From Bryobacteraceae bacterium (GTDB taxonomy: Bacteria > Acidobacteriota > Terriglobia > Bryobacterales > Bryobacteraceae): a DNA stretch of 64,000 nt. Of this stretch, positions 42,540 through 63,450 are shown piece by piece (position 1 is the stretch's first letter; each line of letters opens with the position of its first letter). The translations under genes and the position numbers were made by a program. The DNA lies in assembly GCA_025056455.1 (NCBI GenBank), contig JANWVY010000004.1:1-64000 (forward strand). The letters are read 5' to 3'. Below the pieces are notes generated by a model. It worked only from the letters and a program-made list of their open reading frames with translations, had not been told where the DNA came from and made no database searches.

Positions 42540-42860
42540 TTTCTGTACTTAACGTCCGTCTCTCCCCCGATCCCAACTGAACCCCGAAGTCCAAATCGCT
42601 TCGAAACTACCAACTGCTGAGAATGACGGACGGGTGTGGTTCCATGTGAAGGCGCTAGTCGCCCTCACCTCACTCAGAGCTTCGATCGGCTGGAGGGGAA
42701 GAAAACATGAGGGCCCGCTACGAAGTCGCAACCGTCCAGAAAGCAAAGTCAGTGCCATCTGGTCCTACACAAAAACCGTGAGAATCCTCTTGCTTGCAAT
42801 TGACTAAGACTAAAGGAATTCCTTCCGATACCTGCCTAGTAGGGGGGGCACGCCAGGGGG
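42540..42860. other. Intergenic region upstream of the CpaE-like gene
   Basis: No gene seen. The stretch holds the minus-strand promoter region of the CpaE-like gene and a short hairpin (around 42645-42667, GTGA..TCAC outer arms with GGCG/CGCC inner arms). A GGGGGAGAGA purine run lies ~25 bases upstream of the CpaE start. Confidence 0.4.
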
Positions 42861-42975
42861 GAGGCCAGCGAGAGGGCGCCAGGGGGAGGCCAGCGAGAGG
42901 GCGCCAGGGAGAGGCCAGCGAGAGGGCGCCAGGGAGAGCGATGCAAGGGAGAGCGATGCCGGGGGAAGCGATGCC
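42861..42975. repeat. Purine-rich tandem repeats: 3 x 25 bp then 3 x 15 bp
   Basis: Three units of exactly 25 bases start at 42861, 42886 and 42911 (GAGGCCAGCGAGAGGGCGCC plus AGGG/R). They run straight into three units of exactly 15 bases (42931-42945, 42946-42960, 42961-42975; consensus AGGGAGAGCGATGCC). Both arrays are G/A-rich on the plus strand. Confidence 0.92.
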
Positions 42976-43002
42976 GCCCGGGAGGAAAGCGAGAAGCGCG
43001 AG

Positions 43003-43197
43003 AAGGGGAGGCAACAAGGGGAGGCAACAAGGGGAGGCGCCAAGCGGAGGAGACAAGGCGAGGAGACAAGGGGAGGCGACAAGGCGAGGAGACGAGGCGA
43101 GGAGACAAGGCGAGGAGACCAGCCAAGGCAAGAACGTGACGCGGGCAAGGCGGTAGGCGCGAGGCGAGAGGGTGAGGCGAGAGCGCGAGGCGAGAGG
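43003..43197. repeat. Purine-rich 13-bp minisatellite (9 + 3 units)
   Basis: Nine consecutive units of exactly 13 bases occupy 43003-43119, consensus AAGGSGAGGMRAC (e.g. 43055-43067 AAGGCGAGGAGAC, identical at 43081 and 43107). After 39 less regular bases, three more 13-mers follow (43159, 43172, 43185; GYGAGGCGAGAGS). 13 is not a multiple of three, so the array is not coding. Confidence 0.92.
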
Positions 43198-43364
43198 GGG
43201 AGGCGGGCAACGGCTCTCGGCCCAAGGCAAGAAAGGAAACCTGAACGAATGCCACAGCAGTGGAACATCCGAAGAAAAACAATTCGCCCGAAGGAGAACC
43301 AAAAGTCCTAGCGAGATCCAACAGCGGAAAGGAAATCGTAAGAGAGAAAGCGGGGGTGTTCAGA

Positions 43365-44024
43365 ATGCAAGAAACGATTACGGTGGGTGCCTGTGAGACC
43401 CAACCATTGCTAGCCATCGGCCTCGCATCTGTGCTCGCCGAGCAGCCAGGTTATGAGTTTGTGGGCGCCGTCCAGAGGCTAGAAGAAGCCTCGGTCTTGA
43501 CCAGATCCATTCGACCCCGTGTGATGATCCTAGACAAAACCTTCGGTGTTCAAGCCGTTTTGGAATGGATTGCAAATCACAAACCTTTAACCTCGGTTCC
43601 CGTGAACGAACGCCAAGCTGGCCCAGCGATCGTCGTATGGGGTTTCTCCCTCTCGGAGGCAGAAACACTCCGCTTCCTCCAAGTCGGAGCTAAAGGCATC
43701 CTCCGCAAAACCGCGGATCCGGCTAAACTATTGGCCTGCCTCCAGGCAGTAGCCTCGCGAACCAGCTGGATCGAGGATAGCTTATTCCGAGAAACCATTC
43801 GTCCCGAAAGACCCCATCGCAGTGAACTTACCCCACGTGAGCAGCAAGTCATGCAGCTCGTCGAACAGGGACTCAAAAATAAAGAGATTGCCCGCCAGCT
43901 CGGCATCCGGCCAGGAACGGTTAAGATTCACCTCAAGCATATCTTCGAAAAAACTGGAATCCGGGGCCGTTACGGTCTTGCCCTGAGCGGGATGAAAGAC
44001 AAGGGGATTTTCGCCACGCTGTAA
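43365..44024 (+). CDS. LuxR/NarL-type regulator with atypical receiver domain
   Basis: C-terminal HTH of the LuxR class: LTPREQQVMQLVEQGLKNKE, then IARQLGIRPGTVKIHLKHIF. The N-terminal ~130 residues have receiver-like strands (VMILDKTFG, VVWGFSLSEAE, GAKGILRK), but the acidic pair after the first strand is missing (TVGACETQPLLAIGL), so phosphorylation at Asp60-region is doubtful. ATG 43365 was chosen for the domain start. Longer frames run into the purine repeats. It precedes tldD by 22 bases and looks like the first gene of that operon. A paralog lies at 57791. Confidence 0.85.
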   Translation: MQETITVGACETQPLLAIGLASVLAEQPGYEFVGAVQRLEEASVLTRSIRPRVMILDKTFGVQAVLEWIANHKPLTSVPVNERQAGPAIVVWGFSLSEAETLRFLQVGAKGILRKTADPAKLLACLQAVASRTSWIEDSLFRETIRPERPHRSELTPREQQVMQLVEQGLKNKEIARQLGIRPGTVKIHLKHIFEKTGIRGRYGLALSGMKDKGIFATL

Positions 44025-44046: not shown

Positions 44047-45765
44047 GTGTGGCAGCTCGCTCTCCTGTTCCCACTGATATTCGGGGAGATCCGCGGGCTT
44101 GCGCAAAATGCTTCCCCCCTACTTGAAACACTCTCTGCCGAGTTGCAGCGAAACTTTCTCGAACTCCAAGCAAAAGCTGACCCCCCGCCCTACTTCATCG
44201 CTTATTCTGTGGTGGAGGAAGAATCACAAACCGCCGCCGGCAGCTTCGGTTCGTTGCTTAACTCCGCTGGTGGGCTCACGCGTAGCCTCGATGTAACTGT
44301 CCGGGTTGGGAGTCCAAAACTCGACAACTACCACAGGATGCGGGGCGATGTGGCGCAGTTTGCTTCTGCCCTCCCTCTCCCCGTAGAAGACAATCCGAAC
44401 GCCATTCGACGCCGAGTGTGGCTTGAAACGGATCGCGTCTACCGCCTGGCCTCGCAGCGACTGATTCGTATCCGGGCTAACACCCAAGTGAAGGCGAGCG
44501 AAGAAGATCCATCCGACGATTTCTCGGCCGCGCCTGTCTCCACCTATATTGAACCGGTACGCCGGCTGAGCTTCTCACAGACGGAATGGAATGCGCGCAT
44601 CCGTCGCCTCTCCCAAGAGTGCAACAAACATCGTGGCGTTCTCTCTTGCCTGGTATTAATCGTGGCGGCCCGACAAACGAAGTATTTCGTTAATTCTGAA
44701 GGCACCCGTCTCCAACACGGCAGAACATTCGCCCGGCTCAGTATCCAGGTTCGTGGAAAAGCCTCCGATGGCATGGATTTGCTGGCGACGAACCACTTCG
44801 ACGCGGTCACCGCGGATCGGCTTCCCAAGGAAGAGGCCTTGCTCGCCGCCGTGAAAAAGTCCTGTGAACAGCTCACTGCCCTTCTCAAAGCTCCACCGGT
44901 CGACCCCTTCGTGGGTCCCGCCATTCTGTCTGGATCCGCCGCCGGTGTCTTCTTTCACGAAATCTTCGGTCATCGCATTGAAGGCCATCGCCAAAAGGAT
45001 GAAAGCGAGGGCCAAACCTTTACCAAAAGTGTCGGTAAACCCGTCCTGCCTGAATTTTTATCCGTCATTTCGGATCCAACCCGCGACTCGATCGGCAAAG
45101 TCGACCTCAGCGGCTCCTACCGCTACGATGATGAGGGTGTCCCGGCCCAAGCCGTGCGTGTTGTGGAACAGGGTATTCTCAAGTCGTTTCTCATGTCGCG
45201 CTCACCAATCCGCGGCTTCCCCACCTCAAACGGACATGGACGGCGACAAGCCGGCGCTGAAGTCGTTTCCAGGCAATCGAATCTGATTGTAGAGTCGTCA
45301 AAAGCGGTGGAGCCTGCCCAGCTGCGGATGTTGTTGCTAGAAGAAATCAAGCGGCAAGGCAAGCCTTATGGACTCTACTTTGAACAAGTGACCGGGGGCT
45401 TCACGACAACCGCCCGTCAAGGGCTACAAGCGTTTACCGTAATTCCACTGATTGTTTACCGCGTGTACGCGGATGGGAGGCCGGATGAGCTCGTGCGCGG
45501 CGTCAGCATCGTCGGGACGCCGCTCGCCAGCTTTTCGAAAATTCTCGCCACTTCCAATGTGCCGGAGGTGTTCAACGGCATTTGCGGAGCAGAATCTGGC
45601 AACGTCCCGGTTTCTGCCGTCTCCCCAGCGCTGCTGGTTTCCGAGATCGAAATTCAACGTCAGCCTGCGGGCCTCGACTCCCCACCCCTGCTGCCCAGGC
45701 CCAGCTTACCCGACAGCGCCGATCTCAAAACGGCCGCGCAAACCGGGCGCGAGAGGCAACATTGA
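44047..45765 (+). CDS. Secreted TldD/PmbA-family metallopeptidase
   Basis: The zinc-binding HEXXXH of TldD is intact as FFHEIFGHRIEGH (His304, Glu305, His309). The TldD-type flanks GPAILSGSAAGV, SDPT and a C-terminal IYR/VRG-rich barrel half are present. Unlike cytoplasmic TldD this protein has a hydrophobic signal-like N-terminus (MWQLALLFPLIFGEIRGLAQ) and 572 residues instead of ~480, so it probably works in the periplasm. TldD/TldE heterodimers cleave unfolded peptides. Start GTG 44047. It overlaps the second family member by one base. Confidence 0.88.
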   Translation: MWQLALLFPLIFGEIRGLAQNASPLLETLSAELQRNFLELQAKADPPPYFIAYSVVEEESQTAAGSFGSLLNSAGGLTRSLDVTVRVGSPKLDNYHRMRGDVAQFASALPLPVEDNPNAIRRRVWLETDRVYRLASQRLIRIRANTQVKASEEDPSDDFSAAPVSTYIEPVRRLSFSQTEWNARIRRLSQECNKHRGVLSCLVLIVAARQTKYFVNSEGTRLQHGRTFARLSIQVRGKASDGMDLLATNHFDAVTADRLPKEEALLAAVKKSCEQLTALLKAPPVDPFVGPAILSGSAAGVFFHEIFGHRIEGHRQKDESEGQTFTKSVGKPVLPEFLSVISDPTRDSIGKVDLSGSYRYDDEGVPAQAVRVVEQGILKSFLMSRSPIRGFPTSNGHGRRQAGAEVVSRQSNLIVESSKAVEPAQLRMLLLEEIKRQGKPYGLYFEQVTGGFTTTARQGLQAFTVIPLIVYRVYADGRPDELVRGVSIVGTPLASFSKILATSNVPEVFNGICGAESGNVPVSAVSPALLVSEIEIQRQPAGLDSPPLLPRPSLPDSADLKTAAQTGRERQH

Positions 45766-47495
45766 TGCGCTTGCTCAAATTCCTGTTCGGATTTCCCGTG
45801 CTGGTCTTCGCGCAGCAGGACACAAACGACGTTGTTCTCAGGGCCATGAAGGATGAAATGGCCCGTAGCCGCGCTCTCCGGTTAGTCGATGCCCCTCCTT
45901 ATTTTGTCGAATATACCCTCGATGACGCGGATCTGTACCTTGCGGGGGCATCGCTCGGTGCGCTCATTCGCGAGCGCCGCAGCCGGCTACGCGCGCCCCG
46001 AATCCGGGTTCGCGCGGGTGAGCCAAAGCTGGATAACTCGAACCACATTTTTAGCGACGTTTACCGCGGAGCTCGCTACGATGCAACCGAGTTCCCACTC
46101 GATGACCATTACGATGCCCTCCGCCTCGCCTTCTGGTTGGCCACCGACCGCGCTTATAAACAAGCCTTGGAGGCGCTGGCCAGAAAAAAAGCGTCGCTAA
46201 AAAACATAAGCGAGTCGGATCGCCTGCCAGATTTCAGTCCTGCGAGCGTGGTGTCGCTCATCTTGCCGGTGCCCAAGCGCTCCTTCGATGAAACGAAATG
46301 GCGGGACAGGCTCCGAGACATTTCCGCGGTGTATCGCGCCTATCCGGACATCTTTTTTTCGGAGGTCACACTGGGGATCTCCAATACGACCTCTTACCTC
46401 GTCAACAACGAGGGAACTGAGGTCCGTATGCCCGATTTTCTCACCACGTTCCGCATTCGCGTTTCCACCATGGCCCCAGACGGGATGCCCATTCGGGATT
46501 ACGCTGAGTTTCTCACAACCGATGTGGACCAGCTCCCGTCAGAAAGTCAGTTGAAGAAGGCAGCGCAGGAAACCGGTGACCAAGTCAGCGCCCGGCGAGC
46601 CGCACCCTATCCCGAAAATTATTCGGGCCCGGTGCTCTTTGAAGGAGTTGCTGGTCCCCAGCTCCTAGCCGAAACTCTGGGTCGACATTTCTCCCCGCCC
46701 CGGAGGCCAGTGAGCGATCCCGAACGGCCAATCAATTTTCTCCCCGGAGAGTTGGAAGGAAGGTTGGGGTCGCGAATCTTGCCCGAATGGATGGATGTGC
46801 TCGATGATCCGACGCAAAAGACCTGGCGTGGCACAACTTTACTCGGTCACTATCCAGTCGACATCGAAGGCGTTCCACCGAAACCGGTCGTGTTGATCGA
46901 AAAAGGCGTACTGAAGAGCTTTCTTTCCACCCGGCAACCGCTACCCGGTCAGGAAGGCTCCAACGGTCATGCCCGTTTACCAGGGCCTTTGGGAAATAAC
47001 TTAGCCGTAGCTGGAAATCTCTTCTTCCGCTCGTCCCAAGTAACCGCCGTTTCCGACTTGCGGAAAAAGCTGCTCGATCTTTGCCAGCAGCGGGGAAAAG
47101 CATACGCCTATGTCGTTCGCAAAATGGATTTTCCTTCCACCGCTTCGGCGGACGAATTGCGACGAATTAGCAGCGGGCTTTCAGGACGCCCGGTCAGCAT
47201 TCCCTTGCGGCTTTACCGCCTTTATCCGGATGGGCGAGAAGAAATGGTGCGCGGGCTTCGATTCCGCGCCTTTACGACCCGGGCGTTACGGGATATCCTA
47301 GCCGTGAGCGACGAGCTGTATCTTTTCCAATATCTCGAGAGCGGAGCTCCCTTCGCCCACATGGACGTTTCTGGCTACGTGGCTGGGGTCTCTGTAGTGG
47401 CTCCGGCGCTTTTGTTTGACGAACTCGAGCTCGAAAGGATTCCGGGGGAACTGCCGAAACCGCCTGTTGTTTCCCCTCCCCCCTTGATTCCGTGA
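45765..47495 (+). CDS. Secreted TldE/PmbA-like protein lacking the zinc motif
   Basis: Same family as the preceding gene (APPYFVEYTL, VRAGEPKLDN, YLVNNEGTEVR, LDDPTQKTWRG, VLKSFLSTRQP), but the HEXXXH position reads QLLAETLGRHF, with no His-Glu pair. This mirrors bacterial TldE/PmbA, the non-catalytic half of the TldD-TldE dimer. A short hydrophobic start (MRLLKFLFGFPVLVFAQQ) suggests export together with its partner. ATG 45765 overlaps the tldD-like stop. Proline-rich C-terminus. LptF-LptG follows after 6 bases. Confidence 0.86.
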   Translation: MRLLKFLFGFPVLVFAQQDTNDVVLRAMKDEMARSRALRLVDAPPYFVEYTLDDADLYLAGASLGALIRERRSRLRAPRIRVRAGEPKLDNSNHIFSDVYRGARYDATEFPLDDHYDALRLAFWLATDRAYKQALEALARKKASLKNISESDRLPDFSPASVVSLILPVPKRSFDETKWRDRLRDISAVYRAYPDIFFSEVTLGISNTTSYLVNNEGTEVRMPDFLTTFRIRVSTMAPDGMPIRDYAEFLTTDVDQLPSESQLKKAAQETGDQVSARRAAPYPENYSGPVLFEGVAGPQLLAETLGRHFSPPRRPVSDPERPINFLPGELEGRLGSRILPEWMDVLDDPTQKTWRGTTLLGHYPVDIEGVPPKPVVLIEKGVLKSFLSTRQPLPGQEGSNGHARLPGPLGNNLAVAGNLFFRSSQVTAVSDLRKKLLDLCQQRGKAYAYVVRKMDFPSTASADELRRISSGLSGRPVSIPLRLYRLYPDGREEMVRGLRFRAFTTRALRDILAVSDELYLFQYLESGAPFAHMDVSGYVAGVSVVAPALLFDELELERIPGELPKPPVVSPPPLIP

Positions 47496-47501
47496 ATAGC
47501 C

Positions 47502-49826
47502 ATGATGGGGATTCTGAGCCGAACTCTCTTGAAGGAGACGGCCGCGGGCGCCCTGCTCGGAACCACGCTTTTCACCTTCATCTTGTTCTTGCGCAGTCTG
47601 GGGCGGCTCTTCGAGCAACTCGTCACCAGCCGCTCAGACCTGGACCAAATCGGAGCTCTTTTCCTGCTCATCATCCCGCCGGCGCTGACATTTACGATTC
47701 CTGTCGGAGTTCTCGTAGGAGCCTTGATCGCGCTCGGCCGCATGTCTGGAGATGGGGAGATCATCGCCATGCGTGCGGCGGGCATTCCCAGCCGGCGGCT
47801 GCTCATCCCCATTCTCTTGTTCAGCTTCGCCGGTTTTTGCCTCGCCTTCTATACCTCCTGCTTTCTGACTCCCTGGGCCACCCGTGAAACCTACCGTATT
47901 CTCAATCAAATTGGGGCCGCCCAGCTGACTGCCGAAATTCGTCCCCGAATCTTCGAAGAGCAATTTCCCAACCGTGTCCTTTACGTCGAGGACGTGGTTC
48001 CGGGCCCCGTCGTGCGTTGGAAACGGGTGCTGATTGCTGACATGCGACCTCCTGCGGAACGGGATGGGGCAGGGGAACGGGGTGAAGGTCCTCGCATTAC
48101 GCTGGCCCTAGAGGCGCTTGCCACCCCCGATTTAGCTCAAAACCGAATTCAATTGTCTTTGCTTAACCAAAGTAGCTTCGAAGTGGGAAAAGACCCGGCC
48201 GAATACTTCAGCACGGCGGCGCCACGCGGAGAGCAAGCGCTAGACGCACCCCGTCGAAGCGAACAAAAGGCACGCGACTTTCAAGAGTTGGAGATGCTAC
48301 CGCTGTACAAGCAGGCCAAAGTCTCCGTAGAGGCCGCGATCGAATTTCACCGCCGGCTTGCTTTACCGGTAGCCTGTCTCATTCTAGGAGCCTTGGCGGT
48401 CCCGCTCGGCGTGACTTCTCGAAAAGGGGGAAAATCCTCAGCGTTTGCCTGGACGGTGGGCCTCGCCTTCCTCTACTACATGGGTCTGATCAGCGCGATA
48501 GCCGTTGCGAGACAAGGGGCGCTTCCTCCTGGAATTTCCGTATGGCTCCCAAATCTTCTGTTTCTTGCTTTGACCCTTGTTCTCCTGACCAAGGTCGAGG
48601 CGCCATCTGACCGCGAGTGGGGATCTGGTCTGAGGGATGTGGTGGCCACGATCGCCAGGCGACTTGTCGAGCGCTTCTCGCCCGGCCAGAAAAAGACTTG
48701 GCGCCAGGGCGCCACACGTTTCCCGCTCGTCCCGCAAATAATTGATACCTATGTGCTATCTGCCTTCTTTTACTATTTTGTGGCGTTGGTGGCGGCCTTC
48801 GTCCTCATGACTCATGTTTTTACCTTCTTCGAACTTTTGGGAGACATCATCAAGACCCGCACGCCAATGCCGCGCGTAGGGACATTCCATTTTTTCCTTT
48901 CGCCCCTCCTCATCTATGATTCAGCTCCCATGGCGGTGCTTGTGGCGGTTTTGATTACCTTCAGCCTGTTGTCTCGCACCAATGAAATTACTGCCTTTAA
49001 GGCTTGCGGAATCAGCGCCTACCGGCTAACAGCCCCAATTCTCATCGCAGGCTTTTTACTCAGCGGAGGCTTATTCGCCTTCGACTACTACATCGTTCCC
49101 GAAGCCAACCTCATTCAAGACGCCATTCGCAATGAAATCAAGGGGCGTCCCCCGCAGACCTTTCTCTCACCGAACCGGAAGTGGATTTTCGGGCGTGGCC
49201 CTTGGATCTACCACTACAAGCACTTCGATTCCTCGTTAGGGCTCATGGCCGGCGTCAGCGTGTTTGAAATCGACCGAAACCGGTTCGAGTTGCGCCGCCA
49301 TATCTACGCGGATACGGCACGCTGGGAACCCTCCCTCAAACGCTGGGTGTTCCAAAACGGCTGGATGCGCCGCTTCCAGGGAATCCGCGTCGTGGAATTT
49401 CAGGACTTTCGAGGTCTGACGGCGACCTTTCCTCATCTCGAGGAGCCCCCCACTCACTTCTTAATGGAGGGCAAGCAGGATAAGCAAATGAACTTTCAGC
49501 AGCTGGCCGCCTATATTCGCGAGCTACAACAAAGCGGCATTGATACCTTAAAACTACAAGTGCAGTATCACAAGAAATTTTCCGTACCGCTCTTTGCGCT
49601 CATCATGGCCCTGCTTTCCGCTCCGTTTGCCTTCTTCTCGGGAACACGAGGCGCGATGGCCCCAGTCGGGATTGCCCTGGGGATTGCCATCTGCTATCTG
49701 ACCATCAACCGTCTTTTTGAGCAGCTGGGAAACTTTGGTCAACTTTCTCCGGAGTTCGCCGCTTGGAGCCCGGATCTCATTTTCGGACTCGCCGGTCTAT
49801 ATCTCCTCATGCGCGTCAGGACTTAG
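47502..49826 (+). CDS. Fused LptF-LptG LPS export permease
   Basis: 774 residues comprise two consecutive YjgP/YjgQ permeases. The LptF half (1-~400) has [51 protein letters not shown] (split), [10 protein letters not shown] and a periplasmic beta-jellyroll region. The LptG half (~409-774) starts with [20 protein letters not shown] and has [12 protein letters not shown] and a second jellyroll. Normally LptF and LptG are separate ~360-residue proteins that form the LptB2FG inner-membrane transporter which extracts LPS. The fusion fixes 1:1 stoichiometry. Its 3' end overlaps the convergent radical SAM gene by 4 bases. Confidence 0.9.
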
Positions 49827-50857
49827 CGCTCTGAGATTTGAACTAATTTCTGCTGTGTTCGGTTACGCATCTCAACCGGTGGGATCGTCTGGGGATCGCG
49901 CCAAAAATCGAGATAAGCAGTTTGGTGGACGCAGCTGACAGTGCAATAGGGCGCGCAAGCTTTCTGTGTTCGATATTCGCGCCGGATATCTTCGACCGTG
50001 TACTCCTCGAGCGGTTTTCCCGGATAACCCCGTTGTTGCGAGCAGTAATGCACAAGGCCGTCCTCACAAACATACAAATACCGCGCCCCAGCGCGACATC
50101 GCCAATGATTTGGCCGCCCTTCTGCAATCGCGTCCTGAAAAAAGTTCAGCCGCGAATAACTGCGCTTGCCTTGATTCTTTAAGGTGCGATAGATCTCCCG
50201 TTCCCGCTCTCGCAACGGACGAAGCTGACCATCGGAATCGTGAATAATGCCAATCGTCGAGGTGAAACCCAGTTCGATGGCGCGCTGACTGATCTTGAGG
50301 GCGTCTTCAGGATTGCGGATGCCTCCGCCCACGACCGAATTGATATTGACGTGAAACTTCGCATGCTCGGCTAACCACCGCAGCCGCTGATCGAGCACTT
50401 TCAGGCTCTTTTTAGAAACCTCATCGGGCAGGACGTTGTCGATGGAAATTTGCATGTGGTCGAGGCCAGCGTCGTTCAGCCGCTGGATGCGCTGCACGTT
50501 GAGCAGATATCCATTGGTGATCAATCCCGCAATCATTCCTTGCTTGCGCATGCGTCGAATGATCTGGTCTAGTTCGGGGTGGAGGAGCGGCTCGCCCCCG
50601 CTGATTGTGATTACCGTAGTTCCTAACCTGGCCAACAGGTCAACTCGGCGCAGCATGGTTTCCAGGGGCACCGGCGCCGATACACTGTCATATTCGTTGC
50701 AATAACCACAGTCCAGATTACAGCGGCGGATGGGAATCAAATGCGCCAGGATGGGGTGATCGGTCGAGATTAACCCTTTCACCACCATCCGAATTTCGCG
50801 AAATCGCCGGTTTAGGAAGCGGAGACTGCGGCTTAGTCGCAAACCTGTTTGACCCAT
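49823..50857 (-). CDS. Radical SAM protein with C-terminal cysteine region
   Basis: CX3CX2C at Cys46, Cys50, Cys53 ([10 protein letters not shown]), the [13 protein letters not shown] motif and a barrel pattern ending around residue 250, then [21 protein letters not shown] and a further CAPYCTVSC cluster that fits a SPASM-type auxiliary Fe-S site. 344 residues. Enzymes of this shape modify peptides or act in cofactor or lipid maturation; the substrate is not evident and no precursor peptide gene is adjacent. Separate from the radical SAM gene at 1528. Confidence 0.85.
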
Positions 50858-57790: not shown

Positions 57791-58477
57791 GTGAACATTA
57801 CCACGCTGTTTGCCTGTGACTGGCAGCCGATTGTCATCGAAGGCCTCAAGCGCGTGCTTGAAGGCCTCGAGGAGTTTCGTTTGCTTGGCGCAGCGATGGT
57901 ACCGGCCGAAGCGCTCGCTCAGATCAGCGAGCTCAAACCCCAGATCGTCTTGCTCGACCAAGCTGGTGGATCAAAAGCTGTTTTTCGCCTGCTATCAGCA
58001 ATCCGCGCCGAAGCGCCCCACAGCAGTCCGGTCCTGTGGGTGGCTGATCTTGCCGAAGTTGAATGCTTTCGCGCCCTGCAACTTGGCGCGCGCGGAATTC
58101 TAAAAAAAACCTTGCCCGTCGCATCGCTGGTAGAGTGCCTCCGCGCCGTGGCGAGCGGAAACATTTGGATGGAGAACTCGCTGCTTGATTCTGGCGCAAG
58201 CCCCTTCACCCGCCGGCAAATTCCGCGCCTAACCCCCCGCGAACGCGACATCGTCAGCTGTCTTTGCCGGGGGATGAGAAATAAGGAGATTGCCGCCGAA
58301 CTGGCCATCACGCCGGGAACGGTGAAAGTACACCTGATGCACATTTTCGAGAAGACCGGCGTAAAAGACCGTTTTGAGCTCGCCATTCACGGGCGGAAAC
58401 TGCTCGGCCTGGATTCGGACACCCCGAAACACTCCATCCATCAAACGGAAAATCCCGCTCGCGCTGACCACAGTTGA
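57791..58477 (+). CDS. LuxR/NarL-type regulator with atypical receiver domain (paralog of 43365)
   Basis: 228 residues. The HTH reads LTPRERDIVSCLCRGMRNKE, IAAELAITPGTVKVHLMHIFEKTG, closely matching the regulator at 43365-44024. The receiver half (LFACDWQPIVIEGLKRVL, IVLLDQAGG, GARGILKKT) retains a likely phosphoacceptor aspartate but only one acidic residue after strand 1. Start GTG 57791. It overlaps nothing and is followed by the membrane protein gene, whose Shine-Dalgarno lies at its stop, so the two are probably co-transcribed. Confidence 0.86.
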   Translation: MNITTLFACDWQPIVIEGLKRVLEGLEEFRLLGAAMVPAEALAQISELKPQIVLLDQAGGSKAVFRLLSAIRAEAPHSSPVLWVADLAEVECFRALQLGARGILKKTLPVASLVECLRAVASGNIWMENSLLDSGASPFTRRQIPRLTPRERDIVSCLCRGMRNKEIAAELAITPGTVKVHLMHIFEKTGVKDRFELAIHGRKLLGLDSDTPKHSIHQTENPARADHS

Positions 58478-60579: not shown

Positions 60580-61032
60580 ATGACGGGTCAACTGTGGATC
60601 GCCTTGTTGGTGGGCTTAGTTGCTTCGGCCGAAGATCTCTGGCGGCGAAATATTTCGAATTGGATTCCGGCTACCGCCTGTGTGGTGGGATTTGCCTGGC
60701 AGGTTTCACAACGAGGCTGGATCGGCGTCTGGCAGGCCTTTGCTGGATGTGCCGCTGGTTTTGCTGTGTTTTTGGCGTTTTATCTTCTCGGTGGCATGGG
60801 CGGAGGCGACATCAAGCTCATGGCTGGATTTGGCGCCTTGCTCGGCCTGGATCGGATTTGGGAAGCCGCTTTGTGGACGGCCATTCTCGGCGCTTTACTC
60901 GCTGTCGCCGTCCTCGGTTTCCATGCCGCAGTTGGATTCGTGAGGAAAGAAGCGAAAGCTCGTCAACCCAAGGCGATTCCCTATGCTCCGGCAATCGCTG
61001 CAGGTGTTTGCCTTTCGTTAGTACCTCACTAA
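60580..61032 (+). CDS. cpaA: Prepilin peptidase, CpaA/TadV type
   Basis: 150 residues with about five hydrophobic helices. The two catalytic aspartates of A24 peptidases appear as SAEDLWRRNISNW and GGMGGGDIKLMAG (GXGD motif). Short prepilin peptidases without the methyltransferase zinc domain belong to the Tad system; it cleaves Flp-type pilins at the inner membrane. First gene of the tad operon. The pilin itself is not in the window. Confidence 0.92.
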   Translation: MTGQLWIALLVGLVASAEDLWRRNISNWIPATACVVGFAWQVSQRGWIGVWQAFAGCAAGFAVFLAFYLLGGMGGGDIKLMAGFGALLGLDRIWEAALWTAILGALLAVAVLGFHAAVGFVRKEAKARQPKAIPYAPAIAAGVCLSLVPH

Positions 61033-61125
61033 AGAAAGTTCCACAAGCAGACGATCATCCATGAGGCAACCATTGTGGGACGAAGCTCGCTCTCAAGGAG
61101 AGTGCCCTTTTAGGAGATTGATTCT

Positions 61126-62016
61126 ATGGATCGCAGGTTCATCACGGTGTTAGGCGTGAGTCTCGTGTTTGCGTTGCTTGTTTCGAGTTTGTTCTATCAA
61201 ATGACGGCGCGCGCAGGAGCTCCGAGGAAAGTCGACCAAACGGAAATGAAAGATTTGGTTGTGGCTGCCAAACCTCTCTCCGTGGGAATCACGGTAAAAC
61301 CTGCAGATGTCAAAGTCACCAAGGTGGCTGCTGACCAATTTCCCAAGGGTGGTTTCTCCAAAGTCGAAGAGGTGATTGACCGGCCGGTGATCAGCAACAT
61401 TCTTCTCGATGAGCCTCTGCTTGAGGGCCGTCTGGCCACACGGGGCAGTGGACTGGGCATTGCGCCAATTATTCCAGTTGGGATGCGGGCGGTCACGGTC
61501 CGTGTCAACGACGTGGTTGGCGTGGCAGGATTCGTAATGCCCGGCATGAGGGTGGATGTTCTGGTTACCGGCCGCCCGCCGGGCCAGGACGGCACAGTGA
61601 CTACCACTGTGCTTCAGAACATCCTCGTGCTGACGGCAGGAACAACGACTCAGCCCGATGCGCGAGGGCAAGCCATCAATGCCCCCAACGTGACCTTGCT
61701 CGTGACGCCGGAGCAGGCCGAAATTTTGACCTTAGCCAGCAACGAAGGGCGAATCCAGCTGGTGCTCCGCAACGGCGCCGATCAGGCCATTGAGCGCACG
61801 CCGGGCAGACAACTTGCCGAGCTGTTTGGAACCGCACCAAAACAACAACAACGGCACGCTGAAGAGGCTCCGAGGCCCCGGCCCCGGCCGGTGGTTGTCG
61901 CGCAGGCCGCACCTGCGCCGCCGCCCCCACCTCCTGCGCCGCCGGTGGATCAGGTTGTCGTCATTCGCGGCAACCAAAAAACGGTGGAAACAGTTTCTAA
62001 CCTCACCAACCCCTAG
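61126..62016 (+). CDS. cpaB: Tad pilus assembly protein CpaB/RcpC
   Basis: One N-terminal membrane helix (FITVLGVSLVFALLVSSLF), an SAF domain with VAAKPLSVGITVKPADV, then the RcpC domain with IPVGMRAVTVRVNDVVGVAGFVMPG (split) and VDVLVTGRPP. The C-terminus is proline-rich (~residues 245-275). It is periplasmic/inner-membrane and bridges to the secretin. Start ATG 61126 behind AGGAG (61112-61116). A 7-bp hairpin (61088-61094 / 61098-61104) sits just before the ribosome-binding site and could modulate translation. Confidence 0.92.
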   Translation: MDRRFITVLGVSLVFALLVSSLFYQMTARAGAPRKVDQTEMKDLVVAAKPLSVGITVKPADVKVTKVAADQFPKGGFSKVEEVIDRPVISNILLDEPLLEGRLATRGSGLGIAPIIPVGMRAVTVRVNDVVGVAGFVMPGMRVDVLVTGRPPGQDGTVTTTVLQNILVLTAGTTTQPDARGQAINAPNVTLLVTPEQAEILTLASNEGRIQLVLRNGADQAIERTPGRQLAELFGTAPKQQQRHAEEAPRPRPRPVVVAQAAPAPPPPPPAPPVDQVVVIRGNQKTVETVSNLTNP

Positions 62017-62070
62017 CGTCAGGACGAGTTGAAACCAGGAAAAGGGAGACAGGAAGTGGGAGAAAACTCA

Positions 62071-63450
62071 ATGATCGAAACCACTTGCATCGACGCCGGC
62101 CGTATGGTTCACCGCTTGGCGGCAATCCTTGGCTTCATGGCCCTGGCGGCTGTGGCCCAAACCGCAGACGACATCCGCGTTTCGGTCGGAAAAAGCGTTG
62201 TCATCGATTATCCAGAGGACATTGCGCGGATCTCGACCTCAAGCCCTGACGTTGTGGACGCAGTTCCGGCCACCACCCGCGAGATCCTACTTCATGGCAA
62301 ATCGCTCGGCTCTTCTACCGTCATCGTGTGGTCCAAATCCGGCCAGCGCAACTTCTATAACGTCAACGTTGAGCCGAACCTGGAACCTTTGCGCAAGCTT
62401 CTGAAAGAGACATTTCCGAGTGATGACATTCAGGTGCAGGCAGCGCGCGATTCGCTCTCGTTGACTGGGCGCGTTTCAAGCCAAGCCGTCGCCGATCGGG
62501 CGCTTGCTCTTGCTACACCCTACGCCAAAAGTGTTGTGAACAACCTGACCCTGGCGGCGCCTCCCGTCGAAAAGCAAATCGTGCTGCGGGTGAAATTCGC
62601 CGAGCTCAACCGCAGTGCGGTCTCAGCCTTTGGGGTGAATTTGCTGTCCACCGGCGCCTTGAATACAGTCGGCCGCACGACGACACAACAGTTCCAAGCG
62701 CCGGCGGGAAACAACATTCGCTCAAGCATCCCTGGCAGGAACGAGGGTTTTGCTTCCGAGTTCACCATCTCTGACGCGTTGAACGTGTTCATGTTCCGGC
62801 CGGATTTGAACCTCGGTGCGTTCATCAAGGCTCTGCAATCGATTGGGCTGCTACAAATCCTTGCCGAGCCGAACTTGGTGACCACCAACGGCAAAGACGC
62901 CAGCTTCCATGTGGGCGGCGAATTTCCTGTGCCAGTGTTGCAAGGGGGCGCGAACGCGGGAGCCGTAACCATTCAGTTTCGAGAATTCGGCATCCGTCTG
63001 AACTTCAATCCGCAGATCACGCCCAACCGCACAATTAAGATGCATGTTCGGCCCGAAGTCTCCACGATTGATTTAGCCAATGCTGTTACCTTCAGTGGAT
63101 TCACAATCCCGGCTCTAGCCACGCGCAAAATCGAAACCGATATTGAACTGGGCGAAGGGCAAAGCTTTGTCATTGGCGGACTGCTTGATGATCGTGTCAC
63201 GGAATCCTTCAGCAAGATACCTGGCCTAGCGAATATTCCGATCTTAGGCGCGCTGTTTCGAAGCCGGGAAGAGCGAAAAACGAAAACCGAGCTCGTGGTT
63301 TTGGTGACGCCCGAAATCACCATGCCGCTGAATGCGACCGATCCCAAGCCGTTGCCCTCTTTCCCCAGCGAGTTTTTGCCCAACACGACGCCAAACGCGC
63401 CAACGCCCGCTCGGGTGCCGTATGCGAGTCCTAGGAAATCTTCGAAGTAG
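62071..63450 (+). CDS. cpaC: Tad secretin RcpA/CpaC
   Basis: An N-terminal signal segment (LAAILGFMALAAVAQ) precedes the pilus-formation N domain (KSVVIDYPEDIARISTSSPDVVDAV, split), a BON-type domain (SLSLTGRVSSQAVADRAL) and the secretin core (FKALQSIGLLQILAEPNLVT, VGGEFPVPV, RKIETDIELGEGQSFVIGGLL split). The C-terminal tail is Pro-rich. It forms the outer-membrane pore for the Tad pilus. ATG 62071 with upstream GGGAGA is preferred over TTG 62029. Followed by cpaE at 63509. Confidence 0.92.
   Translation: MIETTCIDAGRMVHRLAAILGFMALAAVAQTADDIRVSVGKSVVIDYPEDIARISTSSPDVVDAVPATTREILLHGKSLGSSTVIVWSKSGQRNFYNVNVEPNLEPLRKLLKETFPSDDIQVQAARDSLSLTGRVSSQAVADRALALATPYAKSVVNNLTLAAPPVEKQIVLRVKFAELNRSAVSAFGVNLLSTGALNTVGRTTTQQFQAPAGNNIRSSIPGRNEGFASEFTISDALNVFMFRPDLNLGAFIKALQSIGLLQILAEPNLVTTNGKDASFHVGGEFPVPVLQGGANAGAVTIQFREFGIRLNFNPQITPNRTIKMHVRPEVSTIDLANAVTFSGFTIPALATRKIETDIELGEGQSFVIGGLLDDRVTESFSKIPGLANIPILGALFRSREERKTKTELVVLVTPEITMPLNATDPKPLPSFPSEFLPNTTPNAPTPARVPYASPRKSSK

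Follow-up and report, generated by a model that had tools for sequence, protein, structure and literature searches.

An exported-looking TldD-type protein and its zinc-less partner upstream of lptFG in Bryobacteraceae-type bacteria

The TldD/TldE (PmbA) proteins of Escherichia coli (MEROPS family M103; PDB 5NJ5/5NJC) are described, in the accessible parts of PMC5810440 and PMC10885120, as a closed heterodimer with a single metal site on its inner wall, and unfolded peptides are thought to enter it through a narrow channel and to be shortened. TldE is presented in the former source as a copy of TldD, within one protease, that lost its catalytic centre. Other members of the family, Amm12/13, release a C-terminal dipeptide (excerpts of PMC12424672), and TldD is listed together with ClpP and HslU among the proteases of a Leptospira exoproteome (excerpts of PMC5881292). 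The open-licence literature searched yielded no account of an exported TldD/E pair. Here we describe a candidate for such a pair in a stretch of 64,000 nucleotides (the window; positions 1 to 64,000 of contig JANWVY010000004.1, assembly GCA_025056455.1) from a Bryobacteraceae bacterium of the phylum Acidobacteriota. Four plus-strand genes with operon-like spacing encode a LuxR-type regulator, a TldD-like protein (P0002), a zinc-less partner (P0003) and a fused LptF-LptG permease (P0004); the tldD-like stop codon and the partner start share one base, and six bases separate the partner stop from the lptFG start. The initial annotation of this DNA had placed the TldD-like gene, its zinc-less mate and LptF-LptG in direct succession, at positions that proved correct.

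The window pair resembles E. coli TldD/TldE in the fold of both subunits and in carrying the HExxxH and Cys ligands in just one of them. It differs in its signal-like N-termini, in giving no match to PF01523, in the length of its proteins (572 and 576 residues, against 481 and 450 in E. coli), in the motif CGAESG, which stands in place of the CGKEGQ of E. coli TldD, in the apparently separate origin of its inactive subunit, and in the adjacency of its genes, since tldD and tldE lie about 1 Mb apart in E. coli. The source genome (4.98 Mb, 98.9% complete) encodes canonical proteins as well, TldD on contig 1 and TldE on contig 3; these belong to the same family, are 52% and 41% identical to their E. 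coli counterparts, and fall outside the clade formed by the exported-looking proteins (called exported below for brevity).

Membership of both window proteins in the family follows from the C-terminal domain model PF19289 (PmbA_TldD), which scores 104.2 bits with P0002 and 51.3 bits with P0003 against a cut-off of 22; P0002 is also matched by TldD models. The N-terminal domain model PF01523 gave no match to either protein, or at the window locus, at an E-value of 0.001, yet the N-terminal part of P0002 still aligns structurally (model range 24-540). AlphaFold monomer models were built from 30 alignment rows for P0002 and 24 for P0003, with pLDDT (predicted local distance difference test) values of 86.8 and 85.1. 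The P0002 model superposes on E. coli TldD with a Z-score of 36.1 over 442 residues at 3.5 Å, and the P0003 model with a Z-score of 26.2 over 436 residues at 4.1 Å; the highest-scoring TldE chain reaches a Z-score of 24.5 with P0003. The predicted fold of both proteins is thus that of TldD across almost the entire chain. P0002 and P0003 are 33% identical in a 522-column alignment; the value given for E. coli TldD and TldE in the available text of PMC5810440 is 18%.

Only the first subunit retains the metal ligands, as judged from aligned residues. The comparison used a 78-row alignment comprising 29 paired exported TldD, three lone exported TldD, 26 exported partners and canonical rows, in which H262, E263, H267 and C454 of E. 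coli TldD align with H304, E305, H309 and C513 of P0002. The three metal ligands and the Glu base, whose roles are described for E. coli TldD in the accessible text of PMC5810440, are conserved in 29/29 paired and 3/3 lone exported TldD rows. P0003 has Ala, Arg and Met at the ligand positions, and among the 26 partner rows neither His nor Cys occurs in the five commonest letters listed there. In a larger set of 99 TldD-like proteins and 73 partners of at least 530 residues, drawn from 105 loci (short, cut or interrupted proteins such as the L063 TldD and the L095 partner are omitted, and several genomes occur twice), the motif HE..GHR is found in all 99 TldD-like proteins and CGAESG in 98 of them, the exception being L019, while HExxxH occurs in 0/73 partners. 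The annotated division into a zinc-motif gene and a zinc-less mate therefore holds, with HEIFGH and the distant Cys present in P0002 and missing from P0003.

The partner had been called TldE-like, but the phylogeny does not bear out orthology with TldE. In a tree of the 78 rows (those from L143 onward read stop to stop, keeping only the C-terminal 640 residues, with the presence of HExxGH deciding the label D or E), exported TldD (29 rows, support 99), exported partners (26 rows, support 98) and the three lone TldD proteins are together split from canonical TldD and TldE with a support of 100. A more careful tree of 27 rows, hand-picked from the 78, recovers the exported group at 100/100, the partner clade at 100/99 and the exported TldD clade at 87/96. 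Forcing the exported partners into a clade with canonical TldE lowered the log-likelihood by 77 and was rejected by the approximately unbiased test (p-AU 0.00016). In a 74-row tree, built without the L178 rows and two duplicates, the exported TldD label needed two changes, owing to the placement of the lone rows. Profile comparison joins the exported TldD and partner profiles at an E-value of 6e-121 over 540 columns; exported and canonical TldD match at 7.5e-16. Because the partner is sister to exported TldD and its grouping with TldE is rejected, it is best read as a separate duplicate inside the exported lineage that underwent a second, independent loss of the active site, and an active/inactive pair of TldD type seems to have evolved on two separate occasions. 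The identities of the two subunits correlate across 22 loci (rho 0.73, with 0/1000 permutations as high), a correlation that can come from shared history alone.

Both subunits carry N-termini that point to secretion, as the initial annotation had said. For each gene the start codon giving the highest N-terminal hydrophobicity was chosen, and control genes were treated alike. Among loci related to the window, a signal-like, strongly hydrophobic N-terminus is present in 78/79 TldD-like and 74/77 partner genes, compared with 6/30 CpaE-like, 8/35 LuxR, 1/5 radical S-adenosylmethionine (SAM) and 0/3 acyl-CoA dehydrogenase genes; among canonical TldD/E proteins, to which a different start rule was applied, the count is 3/38. 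Read by eye, many of the exported-type N-termini finish in signal-peptidase-like AxA or A-Q sites. The motif RRx[FWLMI] lies near the start of 23/74 partners versus 3/76 TldD-like proteins, and the stricter xRRxF motif, resembling a twin-arginine translocation (Tat) signal, near that of 14/74 partners. Some partners may thus be Tat substrates, whereas the catalytic subunit looks mostly Sec-type, and the two subunits may be exported by different routes. Twin-arginine partners beside a Sec-looking catalytic subunit are seen at L055, L056, L061, L081, L082, L084, L090, L098 and other loci.

The distribution of the pair was surveyed with a model of the exported N-terminal half, run against 396 acidobacterial genomes at an E-value of 0.001; absences are provisional because up to six candidates were scored per genome. 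The model matches 68 of the 396. Two matches are adjacent in 59 of the 68 (one of these, G352, with a fragment of the partner only), and the remainder comprise three genomes of family code f29 with a lone exported TldD, one with the two genes on separate contigs (G081), one with the partner present and the TldD-like gene cut by a contig end (G320), and three whose matches reach merely 20-21 bits and are probably canonical proteins (G239, G350, G385). The remaining genome, G328, shows the TldD-like gene in two pieces. The pair is patchy within f4, where 34 genomes match and nine do not, and the f3 genomes, order-mates of the window, group in the tree with f23 and f50 and not with f1, a placement that suggests transfer or differential loss. 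The lone exported TldD proteins (L180, L181, L182) have HEA[VL]GH and CGAESG, and no zinc-less partner was found in their three genomes; the same gene family, of which the member tested is an M23 peptidase, adjoins all three. They are possibly homodimeric or a form from before the duplication. Seven g10 genomes (G020, G022-G025, G027, G028) all have the exported pair and give 0/7 matches to PF01523; they apparently lack canonical TldD/E, and the pair therefore seems to be independent of it.

The loci closest to the window are the best 80 of at least 500, all with acidobacterial titles; those named are Bryobacterales, Bryobacteraceae, Solibacter and other Acidobacteriota. Together with family code f1 of the genome searches they constitute what is called the family here. 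Being the closest relatives, the 80 loci do not bear on the range of the pair in other groups; a plasmid search returned 50 records, of which a single one spans 80% or more of the query, with 23% identity. Some genomes of the family and order encode a third type of TldD with HES[CI]GH (L183, L185, L191, L207), which sits apart from E. coli-like TldD in the tree. The f2 genome G019 (81% complete) gave only canonical-type matches in the genome search, and its LptFG lies without the pair on a 5.1 kb contig, downstream of a divergent open reading frame (ORF) named by eye as thioredoxin-fold-like. G010 was considered as a genome lacking the pair and was rejected, as its LptFG match stops at the contig end (4433 of 4433), probably an assembly gap.

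The third gene of the block was annotated as a fused LptF-LptG permease of the Lpt system for lipopolysaccharide (LPS) export, and both halves of P0004 exceed their equivalog cut-offs: residues 4-363 match TIGR04407 (LptF) at 300.2 bits (cut-off 230) and residues 413-771 match TIGR04408 (LptG) at 292.7 bits (cut-off 240). Of the 80 family loci, 69 extend at least 1.5 kb past the partner stop, and 66 of these have LptFG behind the partner; the estimated gap has a median of 6 bp and does not exceed 60 bp in 62/66 or 150 bp in 64/66. The gap between the two subunit genes is at most 60 bp in 70/76 loci. At L042, L052 and L077 no LptFG stands behind the pair, though more than 6 kb of sequence is there. 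Past LptFG, the most frequent other gene family occurs at 5/59 loci that cover its place. Since the block is kept while the flanking genes vary, the three genes are a real unit within the family, and in Bryobacteraceae-type bacteria they form one apparent operon.

Outside the family this linkage disappears. LptFG stands beside the pair at 0/40 loci from 39 genomes; the sequence extends 5 kb or more to either side in 33 of these loci and 2.5 kb or more downstream in 36. In the 44 non-family genomes for which both places appear among the matches listed, LptFG and the pair lie apart: they share a contig in 9/44, with 0.77 Mb or more between them, and occupy different contigs in the others; the family genomes of the phylum sample are linked in 3/3. 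LptFG itself is matched in 376/396 genomes of this sample versus 68 for the pair model. The conserved synteny that the initial annotation proposed to test is therefore real inside the family and absent from the 40 loci of other acidobacterial groups, and the linkage is a family-level arrangement that does not define the function of the pair. A general role in LPS export is not supported, and an LPS-specific function was dropped as the default reading, while the link may still matter within the family. Nor is the fused permease special to this locus: most of the phylum-sample matches listed span the whole fused protein. Fused LptF-LptG proteins, some 780 residues long, occur widely among the acidobacterial genomes sampled, and some genomes have two separate partial matches. 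Nothing on this fusion was found in the literature searched, including the accessible part of PMC10094684.

The fold, the ligands and the division into an active and an inactive subunit are the same as in E. coli TldD/E, which makes a periplasmic version of that enzyme the most economical reading. We consider it fairly probable that the pair is a periplasmic, self-enclosed zinc peptidase of TldD/E type that trims unfolded peptides and was drawn into the operon of LptFG within a single family. Both subunits would be secreted, mostly by Sec-type signals and in the case of some partners by Tat-like ones, and would pair up as a closed heterodimer with a single metal site. Unfolded peptides would thread into this shell, where a promoted-water mechanism like that put forward for E. 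coli TldD would clip them. Its likely job would be the clearance or trimming of envelope peptides. In Bryobacteraceae-type bacteria the position ahead of lptFG would co-express the pair with LPS export, an arrangement that would not be required for its basic activity. Secretion, dimer formation, the metal, a peptide substrate and a benefit from co-expression with LptFG are hypothetical parts of this reading. Several points weigh against parts of this picture. By profile score the exported partners are closer to canonical TldE (3e-20) than to canonical TldD (3e-11), a hint that is outweighed because both scores are far below the one that joins the two exported profiles; support for the exported TldD clade is moderate, the tree software warned that long branches meet in the trees, and the rejection of the grouping with TldE rests on the 27 chosen rows. 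The lone exported TldD proteins of three genomes imply that a partner is not always needed. Lys456 and Asp272, which tether the clamp in E. coli TldD (PMC5810440, accessible text), are substituted, the former position being Ala in 32/32 exported TldD rows and the latter His in 20/29 paired rows of the alignment, and cleft details must therefore differ from those of E. coli TldD. Members of the TldD family (PMC4351081) are, finally, listed as N-deacetylases, namely LmbIH and LmbQ (accessible part of PMC12945683).

These last two points speak for an amidohydrolase whose envelope substrate is not a peptide; it could be, for instance, an N-deacetylase working on amino sugars or on a lipid head group. 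LmbIH/LmbQ and CcbIH/CcbQ are, like the window proteins, paired family members and are listed as amide-bond enzymes; they differ in belonging to secondary metabolism clusters (lincosamide pathways). Such an activity appears unlikely, given that Arg362 and Glu270 are retained along with the ligands in 29/29 paired and 3/3 lone exported TldD rows; that the closest solved structure is the peptidase TldD is a weak argument, there being no N-deacetylase of the family among the structures listed. The role favoured by the initial annotation, quality control of the envelope or a maturation step linked to LPS export and directed at the Lpt bridge, at LPS or at an LPS-borne peptide, draws on the preservation of the block amid changing flanks and its close spacing; it is set against the loss of linkage at all outside loci, the far wider occurrence of LptFG, and the three family loci without LptFG behind the pair, and we think it quite unlikely. 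A stronger form, in which the exported shell would be a working part of LPS export in Bryobacteraceae-type bacteria as an ATP-independent, self-enclosed periplasmic hydrolase, strikes us as improbable; if true, an active/inactive pair evolved independently of TldD/E and co-expressed with LptFG would edit LPS or remove stalled or damaged Lpt bridge peptides. A cytoplasmic pair like TldD/E, with hydrophobic N-terminal segments that are not export signals, could be suspected from the choice of start codons that favour hydrophobic starts. The same choice yields far fewer such starts in control genes, canonical TldD/E mostly lack such N-termini, and Tat-like motifs recur among the partners; these sequence statistics speak against a cytoplasmic location, which we consider very improbable. 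Still harder to credit is the maturation of a ribosomally synthesised and post-translationally modified peptide (RiPP), with removal of the leader from a secreted modified peptide. TldD/E trims the leaders of several RiPPs (PMC10885120, excerpts) and a convergent radical SAM gene adjoins the block, but that gene family occurs at four family loci, directly after the block at three (L033, L035, L039), and the radical SAM protein reaches no curated cut-off among the 25 of 51 NCBIfam models listed. The RiPP reading was set aside with this neighbour not conserved; no systematic search for a precursor gene was made.

Features of the locus, with positions in the window
Feature	Position	Strand	Basis
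LuxR/NarL-type regulator	43365..44024	+	likely start Met36 of listed ORF 43260-44024
TldD-like zinc subunit, exported-looking, 572 aa (P0002)	44047..45765	+	sequence, profile and structure matches
P0002 signal-peptide-like N-terminus, residues 1-19, GLA end before QN	44047..44103	+	cleavage site inferred
P0002 HEIFGH zinc motif, residues 304-309 (E. coli TldD 262-267)	44956..44973	+	alignment
P0002 Cys513 in CGAESG, third metal ligand (E. coli Cys454)	45583..45585	+	alignment; role from accessible text of PMC5810440
TGATG stop/start overlap of tldD-like gene and partner	45763..45767	+	sequence
Zinc-less exported-looking partner, 576 aa (P0003)	45765..47495	+	placed as sister of exported TldD clade, not as TldE orthologue
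P0003 signal-peptide-like N-terminus, residues 1-16, VFA end before QQ	45765..45812	+	cleavage site inferred
P0003 AETLGR in place of zinc motif, residues 302-307	46668..46685	+	alignment
Fused LptF-LptG permease, 774 aa (P0004)	47502..49826	+	both halves over equivalog cut-offs
Radical SAM gene, convergent	49823..50857		
G/A-rich tandem repeats	42851..43205		

The regulator upstream of the pair had been called atypical. Its receiver is of the NarL type and does have a single acidic residue where two are usual. Because it keeps the phospho-acceptor Asp (36/36 rows showing a letter at that site) as well as the Lys (37/37), it is only mildly atypical. LuxR was detected in 37/80 and CpaE in 30/80 family loci, some of which are too short to reach these genes, and the divergent CpaE-like gene is present in 30/37 loci having LuxR. 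Between the divergent CpaE-like and LuxR genes of the window lie G/A-rich tandem repeats, whose periods are 13, 25 and 39 bases. A second LuxR/NarL-like regulator, like the first, is encoded at 57791-58477, followed at 60580-63450 by what we take to be CpaA-, CpaB- and CpaC-like Tad pilus genes. The LuxR regulator may serve the pilus genes as much as the operon of the TldD-like pair. Outside the family, the neighbours of the exported genes include an M48 peptidase, a HIT protein and an RlpA-like protein (f4), the M23 peptidase beside the lone f29 genes, and DUF3604 (f50); they were discarded as a clue to function, having no common theme beyond some envelope enzymes.

The pair itself is a real and well-conserved observation, in which the exported look and the second origin are the interesting part and the LPS link is local. 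The same architecture of an active and an inactive subunit recurs here in an exported-looking lineage, and this second pair permits a direct test of the usefulness of an inactive subunit and of the role of such a shell in the envelope. It also carries two warnings: the loss of a motif is not by itself sufficient for naming a second gene TldE, and gene order within one family is a poor basis for assigning a function in LPS export.

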